This document shows, one piece after another, positions 46,920 to 50,646 of a DNA stretch of 64,000 nucleotides (position 1 is its first letter; the number at the start of each line of letters is the position of its first letter). Position numbers and translations under genes: made by a program. The notes beneath the pieces were generated by a model. That model saw only the letters and a list, made by a program, of their open reading frames with translations, did not search any database and was not told the origin of the DNA. The DNA is from Mycolicibacterium aichiense (GTDB taxonomy: Bacteria > Actinomycetota > Actinomycetes > Mycobacteriales > Mycobacteriaceae), in assembly GCF_010726245.1 (NCBI RefSeq), contig NZ_AP022561.1, positions 682,001 to 746,000 of the forward strand. The letters are read 5' to 3'.

Positions 46920-48011
46920 TCAGTTCGCGCCGCGACGCAAACGCTCAACCGCGAGCCGCCCGGCTCCCACGGCATCGGTCGGCGGCAGCGATTCCGGGTC
47001 GATCTCGGCGGCCACCGCATGCTCTCCGCCCGTGGTCAGAGCCGTATCGGCCGGAATACCCCGCTTGACCAGAGCCAAGGCGATCGGCCCGAGATCGACA
47101 TGGTCGACGACGGTGCCGAGCCGGCCCACGACACGCCCACCGGCCAGCAGCGGATCACCGGTGACCGGCCGCTCACCCGATCCGTCGAGATGCACCAGGA
47201 CCAGCATCCGGGGCGGCTTTCCCAAGTTGTGAACCCGCGCGACCGTCTCCTGGCCGCGATAGCAACCCTTGTCCAGGTGCACGGCTCCTTGCCCGGGGCC
47301 GCCGATCCATCCGACCTCGTGCGGGATCGTCCGCTCGTCGGTATCCACGCCCAGCCTTGGGCGCTGCGCCGCGACCCGCAGCGCCTCGTACGCCCACACC
47401 CCGGCACGGCGCACCCCTGCCGCGTCCAGCCTGCCCAGCCAGGTCGTCACATCGGCGCGGGGAATCACCAGGTCGAGTTCGATCTGACCGAGCCGGGCGG
47501 GCATCCGACGCAGGAAACCACCGCCGGCGAGGGAAACGGCCGCCGACTCCGCGGGCAGCTCGTCGAGGCCCAGCGCGCCGAGCACCGCCGCGTCGGCGAG
47601 GCGCGGCCCGAGCAGGGAGAGAACAGCCAGGTCAGCGGCCTCCGGAGCGACATCGGCCCAGAACACCATCTTGCGCAGGTAGGCCAGCAGCGGTTCACCG
47701 CGCTCGCGTTCGGTGTCGAGATAGGTGACGTCACCCAACTCGGTCTGCACCCAGTGGTCTTCGACACGGCCTTGGCCGTCGAGGCTCAGGTTCTCGGTGG
47801 AGGCGCCGTCGGACAGCTCACTGACGTGCTGCGAGGAGATCGAGTGCAGCCAGCTGCGCCGGTCGGGCCCGGTGAGTGTGATGACCGCGCGGTGCGAGCG
47901 ATCGACGACGACGGCATCCTGCTCGGCGCTGCGCTGCTCACCGAACGGATCGCCATAGTGCCAGATCGCGCCGGCATCGGGGGAACTGTCAGGTGCGGGG
48001 ACTGCTGACAC
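46920..48011 (-). CDS. ygfZ: YgfZ-like folate-binding protein (Rv0811c-like)
   Basis: A 363-residue GcvT-fold protein. The YgfZ signature is KGCYRGQETVARVHNLGK, with the conserved cysteine, and the preceding IPHEVGWIGG is typical. These proteins use tetrahydrofolate to help build or repair iron-sulfur clusters. Divergent from pabC, a folate-pathway gene, with 38 bases between the starts, which suits a shared promoter region. Confidence 0.9.
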   Translation of the reverse strand: MSAVPAPDSSPDAGAIWHYGDPFGEQRSAEQDAVVVDRSHRAVITLTGPDRRSWLHSISSQHVSELSDGASTENLSLDGQGRVEDHWVQTELGDVTYLDTERERGEPLLAYLRKMVFWADVAPEAADLAVLSLLGPRLADAAVLGALGLDELPAESAAVSLAGGGFLRRMPARLGQIELDLVIPRADVTTWLGRLDAAGVRRAGVWAYEALRVAAQRPRLGVDTDERTIPHEVGWIGGPGQGAVHLDKGCYRGQETVARVHNLGKPPRMLVLVHLDGSGERPVTGDPLLAGGRVVGRLGTVVDHVDLGPIALALVKRGIPADTALTTGGEHAVAAEIDPESLPPTDAVGAGRLAVERLRRGAN

Positions 48012-48049
48012 ACATCAACTCTACGGGGCTGCCACTACGCTCATGCTCC

Positions 48050-48937
48050 ATGCTTGGAATGCCCGGCCGCCCCTCGGTGCTCGTCACTCTCGACGGCGAG
48101 GTGCGCGACCCGGCGCAGCCGCTGTTGTTCGCCGACGACCTCGCGGCTGTCCGGGGCGACGGCGTGTTCGAGACCCTGTTGGTGCGCGACGGACGCGCGT
48201 GCCTGGTGGACGCGCATCTGCGCCGGCTTACCCAGTCGGCCAAGATGATGGACCTTCCGGAACCGGACCTGTCGGCCTGGCGGCGGGCCATCGGCGTCGC
48301 GGTGGGGCAGTGGACGTCGTCGACGGCGGCCGAGGGCGCGCTGCGGCTGGTGTACAGCCGCGGTCGGGAAAGTGGCTCGGCGCCGACCGCCTACCTGACG
48401 GTCAATCCCGTGCCGGACCGCGTCGTCGCCACCCGCCGCGACGGTATCGCCGCGGTGCTGCTCGATCGCGGGCTGCCGTCCAGCGGAGTGGATGCCATGC
48501 CGTGGCTGGTGGCGGGCGCCAAGACGCTGTCGTACGCGGTGAACATGGCCGCGCTGCGGCACGCCGCCGACAAAGGCGCCGGTGACGTGATCTTCGTCAG
48601 CTCCGACGGGTACCTGCTCGAGGGTCCTCGCTCGACGGTGGTGATCGCCACCGACGAGGGGACGGGCACGACCTTGCTCAGCCCGCCGCCGTGGTACCCG
48701 ATCCTGCGCGGCACCACGCAGCAGGCGCTGTTCGAGGTCGCCCGTGATAAGGGCTACGACTGCGACTTTCGTGCGCTGAGACCGTCCGACTTGTATGCCG
48801 CACAAGGGGTTTGGCTGGTGTCCAGCATGACGCTCGCGGCTCGGGTGCACACTCTCGACGGGCAGGCGCTGCCGCCCACCCGGTTGGCCGCCGAGGTGGC
48901 CGCGCTGGTCGACGCCGCGATCGTCTGTGATCGCTGA
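48050..48937 (+). CDS. pabC: Aminodeoxychorismate lyase (class-IV PLP enzyme)
   Basis: A 295-residue fold-type-IV PLP enzyme that makes p-aminobenzoate for folate. It includes RGDGVFETLLVRDGRACLVD, the Schiff-base lysine in VAGAKTLSYAVNM, and LEGPRSTVVIA. It is very similar to M. tuberculosis Rv0812. ATG 48050 is used; GTG codons a few residues on are alternatives. The gene ends about 50 bases before a structured RNA region on the same strand. Confidence 0.9.
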   Translation: MLGMPGRPSVLVTLDGEVRDPAQPLLFADDLAAVRGDGVFETLLVRDGRACLVDAHLRRLTQSAKMMDLPEPDLSAWRRAIGVAVGQWTSSTAAEGALRLVYSRGRESGSAPTAYLTVNPVPDRVVATRRDGIAAVLLDRGLPSSGVDAMPWLVAGAKTLSYAVNMAALRHAADKGAGDVIFVSSDGYLLEGPRSTVVIATDEGTGTTLLSPPPWYPILRGTTQQALFEVARDKGYDCDFRALRPSDLYAAQGVWLVSSMTLAARVHTLDGQALPPTRLAAEVAALVDAAIVCDR

Positions 48938-49033
48938 TCGCGAAAATGTGTTGGCACAACCTTTCTGACGCGGGTACTTTCGTCGGTACACAAGAAGGGA
49001 GGTGGTCCGGAAAATTGATAGCTTCTAGGACAT

Positions 49034-49138
49034 GTGAGGTGGCTGCCCGCTAGCAGCACCAGGTGCCGGGATTTCACCTGCGCTCTGAGCGCGCTGGCGA
49101 ATTCCAGGCAGCTACCCGGCCCCCGAGCTCTTGGTTAG
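49034..49138 (+). CDS. Possible 34-residue small ORF inside the structured RNA
   Basis: GTG at 49034 preceded by AGGA, with 34 codons to TAG at 49136-49138. The product is cysteine- and arginine-containing (MRWLPASSTRC, then RDFTCALSAL and SRQLPGPRALG). The frame runs through all four helices and stops inside the terminator loop, so translation would interfere with the fold. It overlaps a 12-codon TTG frame (49015-49053) that sits behind the strong ribosome-site-like sequence. Whether either is translated cannot be decided from one sequence. Confidence 0.3.
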   Translation: MRWLPASSTRCRDFTCALSALANSRQLPGPRALG

Positions 49139-49176
49139 TCCGACCAGGGAACAACGGCTCGGGGGCCGCCCCTTTT
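49118..49176 (+). terminator. Strong intrinsic terminator of the structured RNA
   Basis: GGCCCCCGAGC (49118-49128) pairs perfectly with GCTCGGGGGCC (49157-49167), enclosing a smaller TGGT/ACCA hairpin. It is followed by GCCCC and a TTTT run at 49173-49176 on the plus strand. The direction fits transcripts coming from pabC or from a promoter in the gap after pabC. Confidence 0.75.
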
Positions 49177-49187
49177 CTGACGGCCCC

Positions 49188-49544
49188 TCAGCGCTGCTGA
49201 GGCGGCGCGGGCGCCAATGACGCGCACGCCTGAAGACCCTTGTCCCACACCGATTGATCGACACCCGGCGGCGCCGGCGGCGGCCCGCCCGCCGCGCCGG
49301 GGTTGGGCTGCCCGCCTGGACCGCCTTGTGGCGGGGGCCCGCTCGGCTGGCCGCCCGGTGCGCCGGGACCGCCCTGAGGCGGTGCGGGCACACCGTTGTC
49401 GGTCATACACGTCGCGAACGGGTCATTCGGCCCGGGCGGGTTGCCCGGCGCGGCGTCGCTCGAGGGCGCACACGCCACCACCGCGCCGATCAGGCCCGCG
49501 CTGATGGTGCCCATGGCTGCGGCATGCAACAGTCGCAGAGTCAT
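49188..49544 (-). CDS. Proline/glycine-rich putative lipoprotein
   Basis: A 118-residue protein with a signal peptide and lipobox VVAC (lipidated Cys25), then a low-complexity Pro/Gly/Gln middle. It ends with GVDQSVWDKGLQACASLAP. The C-terminal motif and an internal DPFATCMTDNGVPAP recur in the neighbouring lipoprotein (GVDPSIWDQAMKACSPLEP, ARCLHEHGVPDS), so the two are paralogues. A 17-base hairpin (CCTCAGC-GCT-GCTGAGG, 49186-49202) covers the stop codon. Function unknown. Confidence 0.75.
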   Translation of the reverse strand: MTLRLLHAAAMGTISAGLIGAVVACAPSSDAAPGNPPGPNDPFATCMTDNGVPAPPQGGPGAPGGQPSGPPPQGGPGGQPNPGAAGGPPPAPPGVDQSVWDKGLQACASLAPAPPQQR

Positions 49545-49684: not shown

Positions 49685-50002
49685 TCAGCCCGCCGGGCCC
49701 GGCTCCAGCGGCGAGCACGCTTTCATCGCTTGATCCCAGATGCTTGGGTCGACACCCGGCGGCGGACCCAACACCGCGGTACCGGCCGAGTCGGGGACAC
49801 CGTGCTCGTGCAGGCAGCGTGCCAGCGAACCGTGCTCGGCCGGCCCGGGTGTCGTGCTGCCCGGGGATGTGGTGTCAGGCAGGGGACTGGTGGTGCTCGG
49901 CGCCGGGCTGATCGCGGTCGGCTGCGACGGGGACGGGGCCGGGACGCACCCGGCGAGGAGCGCGGTGGCCGCCGTGGCGACCCCGAGGGCAACGCGGCGC
50001 AT
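49685..50002 (-). CDS. Putative lipoprotein, paralogue of the next gene
   Basis: A 105-residue protein with a classic lipobox LLAGC (Cys19) after [14 protein letters not shown], a Ser/Thr/Pro linker, and a C-terminal domain of about 50 residues with two cysteines (ARCLHEHG and MKACSP). The same domain ends the downstream lipoprotein. The ATG overlaps the stop of the nitrobindin gene (TGATG), so it is translationally coupled. Possible export of a small heme- or redox-related factor is inference only. Confidence 0.78.
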   Translation of the reverse strand: MRRVALGVATAATALLAGCVPAPSPSQPTAISPAPSTTSPLPDTTSPGSTTPGPAEHGSLARCLHEHGVPDSAGTAVLGPPPGVDPSIWDQAMKACSPLEPGPAG

Positions 50003-50646
50003 CAGCCGACGTGTCGCGTGAGCCGCGCGGACAGGTGCGGAACCAGTCCGCCGTCGGCGTCGACCCGCTCCTCGACGTAGGCCAGGTCGCCCTCGACGAT
50101 TCCGTAGAGCCGCTTGGCCCCGCCGACCAGCACACCGGACTTGCTGCGCGCCAGTGCATCGGTCACCAGCTCCCAGGACGACTGGTTGCGCGGATGGCCG
50201 TAGAACAACTCGACATACCCGGCGGAGTGGGCCAGCAGCAGCTCGATGGCCTGCGATTCGTCCGGGTCGGCAGGATCTGTGACGAACCGCCAGAAACCGG
50301 TCTCGCGCAGTCCGGGGGAGTGATAGTCGCCACCCTCGTCGAGGCGCCAGGACCGGGACTCCCAGTTCAGATAGTCGCCGCCGTCGTGAGAAACGACGAT
50401 CTGCTGCCCGAAGTGGTAGTCGCCGTGCGCGCCGCGGCCTTCGCCCTCGCCGCGCCAGACCCCGACCAGCGGCAGCAACGCCAGCAGTGCGTCGTTGAGG
50501 TTGGCGCCCAGACGCAAATTGGCGGTGTCGGCGGGAACCGGCAGGTCGTCGAAAACCGGGATGTTGCGGACCGCCGTTTCCTTCGCCCGCTCGACCGCAG
50601 CCGCCACGGCGCGATCGCCGCTACCGGAGATGTCTGGAGAACTCAC
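50002..50646 (-). CDS. Nitrobindin-like heme protein (THAP4/DUF1794; Rv0813c-like)
   Basis: A 214-residue protein with the ten-strand barrel pattern of nitrobindins. [11 protein letters not shown] near residue 60 is the family GxWxGxG motif. Strands [27 protein letters not shown] and a late [17 protein letters not shown] follow. Nitrobindins bind ferric heme and react with NO or peroxynitrite. Its GTG overlaps the stop of a 32-codon membrane ORF and its stop overlaps a lipoprotein start, so it lies in a tight operon with sseC/cysA2. Confidence 0.9.

Follow-up and report, generated by a model that had tools for sequence, protein, structure and literature searches.

RNAIII/hld and SgrS/SgrT are dual-function small RNAs (sRNAs), the peptide of which has a function of its own, and the trp and erm leaders are leader-peptide attenuators. 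The closest described relative of the RNA considered here is the actinobacterial Ms_IGR-5. Published work presents it as an sRNA validated by RNA-seq in Streptomyces lividans (PMC8079986), as a transcription unit in Streptomyces avermitilis (PMC8780764) and, in Mycobacterium smegmatis, as the IGR-5 sRNA overlapping ncMSMEG15794c (PMC10454040). Ribosome reads are also reported on homologues in M. abscessus and M. smegmatis; the authors of the M. abscessus work speak of ribosome-protected non-coding RNAs without clear evidence of translation (PMC4974804). No function of Ms_IGR-5 was found in the literature searched. We also found no mention of the 12-codon open reading frame (ORF) described below, and five of its peptide strings gave no paper; supplements and preprints lay outside this search, and earlier notice is possible.

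Here we describe the Ms_IGR-5 locus of Mycolicibacterium aichiense, within a stretch of 64,000 nucleotides of contig NZ_AP022561.1 (hereafter the window), and compare it with its relatives. The comparison suggests that Ms_IGR-5 is probably an RNA worked by ribosomes and not a plain non-coding RNA.

Identity, setting and distribution of the RNA

The RNA lies in a gap between a homologue of pabC (47993-48937, Aminotran_4, PF01063) and convergent downstream genes. It is, practically beyond doubt, a member of Rfam family RF02471 (Ms_IGR-5), which it matches at full length with 175.8 bits against a gathering cut-off of 45 (E 4.5e-41, model positions 1-184 of 184). This is the single RF02471 match in the whole genome and the sole Rfam match in the window at the gathering cut-off. 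A preliminary description of the locus had placed an RNA at 48990-49178, in agreement with the Rfam match (Table 1). The terminator that it listed is present at the position given, as are its two frames of 12 and 34 codons and its ribosome-binding sequence. Its view that the gap holds an sRNA rather than spacer is upheld by the Rfam match and by published reports of homologues as small RNAs in the two Streptomyces species and in M. smegmatis, while its statement that the RNA could not be matched to a named family has to be withdrawn. Downstream, two small ORFs without a Pfam match (49188-49544 and 49685-50002, both on the minus strand) have a common C-terminal motif (13 of 23 residues identical) and resemble a tandem pair of secreted or lipoprotein-like paralogues; a gene for a THAP4/nitrobindin-like heme-binding protein (50002-50646) adjoins them.

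Table 1. Features of the Ms_IGR-5 locus, in window coordinates.
Feature	Position	Strand	Basis or remark
Candidate promoter: TTGGCA (48951-48956), 18-nt spacer, TACTTT (48975-48980)	48951..48980	+	Consensus match
Ms_IGR-5 small RNA, full length	48988..49174	+	Rfam RF02471 match
Shine-Dalgarno (SD) sequence, 16 contiguous pairs with the 16S rRNA 3' tail, two of them G-U	48993..49008	+	Complementarity, kept in relatives
12-codon ORF, TTG start, TAG stop, MIASRTCEVAAR followed by stop	49015..49053	+	Kept in relatives
Predicted pseudoknot, 5' half, GGAC, ORF codons 5-6	49028..49031	+	Pairs with 49138-49141
GAGGTG, second SD-like element within the ORF	49036..49041	+	At 130/130 loci by pattern; 9 nt to the stop codon
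Helix P2, 5' strand, codons 8-11	49038..49047	+	95.4% of cells paired; double changes in 6/10 pairs
Helix P2, 3' strand, just before the terminator	49107..49116	+	In the model, freed when a ribosome occupies the stop codon
Intrinsic terminator stem, 49117-49128 with 49157-49168, inner hairpin in the loop	49117..49168	+	94.1% of cells paired; 10/12 pairs double-changed
Predicted pseudoknot, 3' half, GTCC, loop of the terminator's inner hairpin	49138..49141	+	Pairs with 49028-49031

Most comparisons below rest on 130 loci, a non-random sample made up of the 30 best-scoring loci listed, all from the genus of the window, and 100 others picked for spread among the matches listed. Alignment A1 holds 96 of them; it omits 25 closely related loci of the genus as well as L032, L041, L043, L049, L050, L058, L063, L067 and L070. 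A second set was built from at least 120 pattern matches, 80 of which are listed with names. The 96-row and 119-row sets may share genomes and are thus not independent, and the shuffle controls leave the relatedness of the sequences in place.

The candidate promoter of Table 1 has counterparts elsewhere. In 98 of 100 relatives, a TANNNT motif precedes the RNA start by 12-14 nt; its combination with a -35 match occurs in 75 of the 100, compared with a mean of 1.0 and a maximum of 4 in shuffled upstream regions; an A-rich stretch is found 41-45 nt before the RNA start. The neighbours, counted as conserved ORFs of at least 90 codons and not as annotated genes, vary. The nearest upstream ORF is pabC at 33 of the 130 loci, and another or none elsewhere. 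A conserved downstream ORF was found at 115 of the 130 loci and none at the other 15; the nearest one lies on the opposite strand at 87 of the 115 and on the same strand at 28, where the genes are various. Since the RNA has its own predicted promoter and terminator and is mostly followed by an ORF on the opposite strand, it is freestanding, and the attenuator offered as an option by the preliminary description is not supported.

Of 397 genomes of the order, 332 carry RF02471 above its cut-off, and 71 of 85 genera have a match at E <= 0.001; in the class, 191 of the 296 genomes sampled carry it above the cut-off. Among the matches listed, carriers include Streptomyces, Nocardia, Nocardioides, Geodermatophilus, Cellulomonas, Actinomadura and Mycobacterium, and nearly every carrier genome has one match. 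Of 396 genomes of the phylum, 28 contain a strict exact pattern, which would miss diverged forms, and these 28 are all among the 38 class members drawn; the pattern gave no match in the 358 genomes of other classes, where diverged forms would likewise escape it, and the reversed pattern gave none. The plasmid collection yielded a single match, in a 2.66-Mb Nocardia record. Phage copies were considered and rejected, as the two viral contigs matching the pattern share one stretch, in which the frame continues past codon 13. Another record, MT835602.1 (L289, 1440-1760), named 'Bacteriophage sp.', marked UNVERIFIED, unannotated and derived from human faeces, holds by eye a copy with the 12-codon ORF; it is probably a bacterial contig rather than a phage.

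Five genomes of the genus of the window (L152-L156) have no Ms_IGR-5, neither the RF02471 model (best E 0.07) nor the pattern finding a copy elsewhere in them, and the RNA is therefore dispensable. In these genomes, pabC is separated by 12 to 96 nt from the convergent gene for the homologue of the window's heme-binding protein. The family is also broader than its Rfam model, because a divergent copy from another genus of the family Mycobacteriaceae (L132, G238:C1:3671761-3671896), at 22.8 bits and thus below the cut-off, retains the SD and a 12-codon ORF, MVNFRIKEVADR followed by a stop. Its middle region is shortened; it has a short P2 on reading and, by eye, a different terminator. At L032 (G301:C7:40673-40847), in a genome with two matches, the 5' end lacks the SD while the remainder is recognisable; this copy is perhaps a decaying duplicate.

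The ribosome-binding site and the 12-codon reading frame

The SD pairs with the 16S tail at -29.5 kcal/mol. This is the best value among the 78,300 18-mers scanned in the window, a set restricted to sites of 9 or more purines among the roughly 128,000 window positions, and the next is -22.1 kcal/mol. The 3' end of the genome's own 16S rRNA was found at two places. In the relatives, 15 contiguous nucleotides (columns 8-22 of A1) complement the 16S tail in 94 of 96 rows, and the same complementarity is seen in 108 of the 119 rows of the second set among the matches listed. Columns 9-11 and 19 are A or G, with four exceptions in the 96 and 119 rows listed (three T at column 19, one T at column 10), and column 21 is C or T. 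Changes are thus nearly all A/G opposite U or C/T opposite G, so that pairing with the 16S tail is preserved. Complementarity fades past column 23, at a point that we take to be close to the start of 16S helix 45.

The SD is followed, after a spacer of 4, 5 or 6 nt, by the 12-codon ORF. In a scan anchored on GAGGTG, which is present at all 130 loci, the frame is kept at 128, with 12 codons in 125 and 13 in 3, and length differences within it stay in frame. It starts with TTG (70), ATG (39) or GTG (19) and stops with TAG (116), TGA (7) or TAA (5). The two loci without it are L047, which has CTG in place of a start, and L032. In the 96-row alignment, the first base of the start codon is T in 40 rows, A in 38, G in 17 and C in 1, and the following TG is invariant; the stop is TAG in 83, TGA in 7 and TAA in 5. 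The remaining row (L101) has CAG, with TAG at the next codon, giving a copy of 13 codons; in the other copies of this length, L065 and L067, 3 nt are inserted. Among the matches listed for a pattern blind to the stop, 119 of 120 have a stop exactly at codon 13 (TAG 96, TGA 13, TAA 10); the exception, L280, has none there, sits in a 110-codon frame and looks like a chance match. Start, length and stop are therefore kept while TAG is exchanged for TGA, which would not be expected of an RNA motif, and the 12-codon ORF is very probably under selection to be translated.

The 34-codon frame of the preliminary description (49034-49138) behaves otherwise. Across the 130 relatives the same frame spans from 2 to 129 codons, and its start position reads GCG in 12 of them. 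With so erratic a length and a start that is lost in relatives, it was rejected as a conserved ORF and is a trait of few copies. The proposal that its translation competes with termination is thus not supported; a competition between translation and RNA structure is supported for the 12-codon frame, which the preliminary description had also listed.

Within the 12-codon ORF, codons 2-4 are highly variable. Codon 5 is CGG, AGG, TGG or GGG (R, W or G), and codon 7 encodes R, C, S, G, H, E or K. In contrast with these, the E-V codons (GAGGTG) are identical at every locus; the first G and the A of GAG are invariant in the 96 rows, with no pairing partner found. On alignment evidence, many of the fixed bases of the ORF are accounted for by predicted pairing, and its position, length and stop are better kept than its amino acids.

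At column 49 of A1, the third base of codon 6, C is seldom found (2 of 96 rows), although GC-rich genomes commonly use codons ending in C. A C there would extend the pairing of GGAC with the end of the SD (GGUCC), and its avoidance may keep the SD open.

Terminator, helix P2 and pseudoknot

The predicted folding energy of the RNA is -94 kcal/mol (z = -4.63), which none of 200 shuffles equals. The fold contains nested helices, one of which, P2, has 10 bp. The terminator is, as the preliminary description had stated, a perfect stem with a T-run; the stem has 12 pairs and not 11, and is followed by CCCCTTTT. In the 96-sequence alignment, a structure of 39 pairs is formed in 89.5% of cells, compared with at most 46% for slid versions. 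Covariation bears this structure out, with double changes in 28 of the 39 pairs and 326 double-changed cells against 100 in shuffles that ignore kinship; the preliminary description thus withstands the covariation test that it had named for itself. For a third stem, which encloses the stop codon, support is partial (74.9% of cells).

Codons 5-6 of the ORF (GGAY) form, in the aligned sequences, a covarying pseudoknot with the loop of the inner hairpin of the terminator (RUCC). Its variable pair is C-G in 85 of the 96 rows, U-A in 8 and U-G in 3, without a mismatch. There are 8 double changes against 1.0 in shuffles (kinship uncorrected), spread over three families (f1, f33 and f41), and they fall in one pair, the other three of the four barely varying. 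Among the matches listed for the second set, the same pair is C-G in 105, U-A in 11, U-G in 2 and a gap in 1, and the RUCC loop stands at the aligned columns in 113 of 119 rows. Of the six exceptional rows, five have GTCC or ATCC nearby and one (L229) has no RUCC motif in the stretch shown.

Two other pairings of the 5' region were considered. A hairpin between the SD end (GGUCC) and GGAC shows up in single folds and in RNAalifold; it was rejected, as the pair of columns 19 and 45 is broken in 8 of 96 rows, its double changes number 3 against 1.1 in shuffles, with 38 of 500 shuffles as high, and the same GGAC covaries with the terminator loop instead. The 5' pairing of the Rfam model (positions 14-19 with 55-60, which joins the SD to codons 9-11) can form in 93.8% of cells, with no double change among the 96 sequences, and shuffles give equal values.

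Two observations concern the 3' end. In many relatives, a weakly conserved CAUGUCCGG (A1 columns 301-309) follows the terminator stem and replaces the long T-run. On the minus strand, the terminator (49117-49168) scores 23.9 bits to RF02471, below the cut-off; being palindromic, it may serve the convergent genes as well.

Possible functions and comparison with known systems

Promoter, 16S-tail complementarity, ORF, pseudoknot, P2 and terminator make up the conserved anatomy of Ms_IGR-5, as read from the alignments. The mechanism that we propose starts with the SD, which would pair with the entire free tail of the 16S rRNA, capture a 30S subunit and thereby direct initiation on the 12-codon ORF. 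Without a ribosome, the RNA would adopt a closed form, in which codons 5-6 make a kissing contact with the inner hairpin loop of the terminator and P2 holds codons 8-11. Because the ORF runs through both elements, translation must open the fold: a translating ribosome would disrupt pseudoknot and P2, and one standing at the stop codon would hold P2 open. With the stop codon in the A site, the internal GAGGUG would be at about SD distance from the P site and may hold the ribosome there. In this way, the position of the ribosome would decide whether the RNA is closed or open. The likely output is the freed 3' strand of P2 (GRCAGYCACC), which would pair in trans or fold back on the SD; in the latter case, one ribosome would load at a time.

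In constrained folding with a ribosome at the stop codon, for which the footprint size was assumed and the pseudoknot left out, the probability that the 3' strand of P2 is unpaired rises from 0.11 to 0.40. In the same fold, the freed strand pairs partly with the SD (mean 0.34), and the SD core is unpaired at 0.43, compared with 0.50 in the free RNA (model without pseudoknot). The effect is moderate, and in this model the SD receives little feedback.

We infer that gating by ribosomes could well be the function of Ms_IGR-5, a reading that we hold tentatively, somewhat short of thinking it probable. The best reading of the comparison is that passage and parking of the ribosome, more than the peptide, would be the feature kept by selection. 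We are distinctly doubtful about a bolder version, in which Ms_IGR-5 would act as a class-wide, housekeeping-like 'ribosome meter'. The full-length complement would read the intact 16S tail and a single ribosome would pass through the 12-codon track; its position would open the pseudoknot and the helix, exposing an anti-SD-like GUCACC that closes its own start or the starts of other mRNAs.

Other functions have to be weighed against gating. Capture of the 30S subunit could be an end in itself: the RNA, as decoy for or reader of the intact 3' tail of the 16S rRNA, would hold small subunits or distinguish intact from trimmed ribosomes, with the ORF letting the ribosome clear. The extent of the complementarity, which spans the free tail and stops near the presumed base of helix 45, its energy relative to the next scanned site and a promoter with -35, -10 and upstream A-rich stretch all agree with such a role. 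A stop fixed at codon 13 and a pseudoknot to ORF codons are, however, of no need to it, and we find it unlikely. A 12-residue peptide (consensus MxxxRTREVAVR) acting in trans or stalling its own ribosome is improbable. The constant E-V, the sequence of the divergent copy L132 and a third base of codon 6 that is mostly T, G or A, and therefore free, speak for it. On the other side, codons 5 and 7 change residue, codons 2-4 vary widely, CGN at codon 7 is limited to CGT and CGC (80 of 125), which indicates a constraint on bases, and most bases of the E-V codons sit in P2. The peptide was rejected as the main product, since its residues vary while place, length and stop of the ORF persist.

Rfam lists the family as an sRNA, and the M. 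smegmatis IGR-5 is credited to a study with heterologous Hfq in PMC10454040, as would suit an ordinary antisense sRNA acting in trans with an incidental ORF. That 128 of 130 loci keep start, length and stop alike, and 119 of the 120 pattern matches listed the stop, is unlike an incidental frame. It largely refutes that part of the explanation, and leaves the whole with very little likelihood. We consider it almost certainly wrong that Ms_IGR-5 controls a downstream gene in cis by means of a leader peptide: leader-like ORF, competing helix and terminator do follow each other in the order of an attenuator, but neighbours differ between taxa and the downstream ORF is mostly on the opposite strand. 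The attenuator was rejected on this ground, a same-strand conserved gene following at just 28 of 115 loci and being varied.

Compared with what is described, the window locus has the same sequence, length and strand as Ms_IGR-5. What was known is an RNA catalogued as an sRNA, RF02471 being entered as a gene for a plain sRNA. To this we add the 12-codon ORF, the long complement to the 16S tail and the pseudoknot; what is new is that the RNA appears to be organised about a fixed translation unit of 12 codons and a 16S-tail complement of great length. For an RNA filed as a plain sRNA and present in 191 of the 296 class genomes sampled, this anatomy points to ribosome assays before target hunts. 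6C RNA (RF01066) is also an actinobacterial small RNA, reported with ribosome reads (PMC4974804), and belongs to a different family. Like RNAIII/hld and SgrS/SgrT, Ms_IGR-5 is a small structured RNA with a short ORF, here very probably under selection; the peptide is functional in those systems, whereas that of Ms_IGR-5 varies while the place and length of its ORF are kept. With the trp and erm attenuators it shares a short ORF that overlaps half of a helix and precedes a terminator, but it differs from them in having no conserved downstream gene on the same strand. If gating is correct, Ms_IGR-5 would be a freestanding RNA switch with the ribosome as its ligand, in the class to which Streptomyces and the mycobacteria belong.
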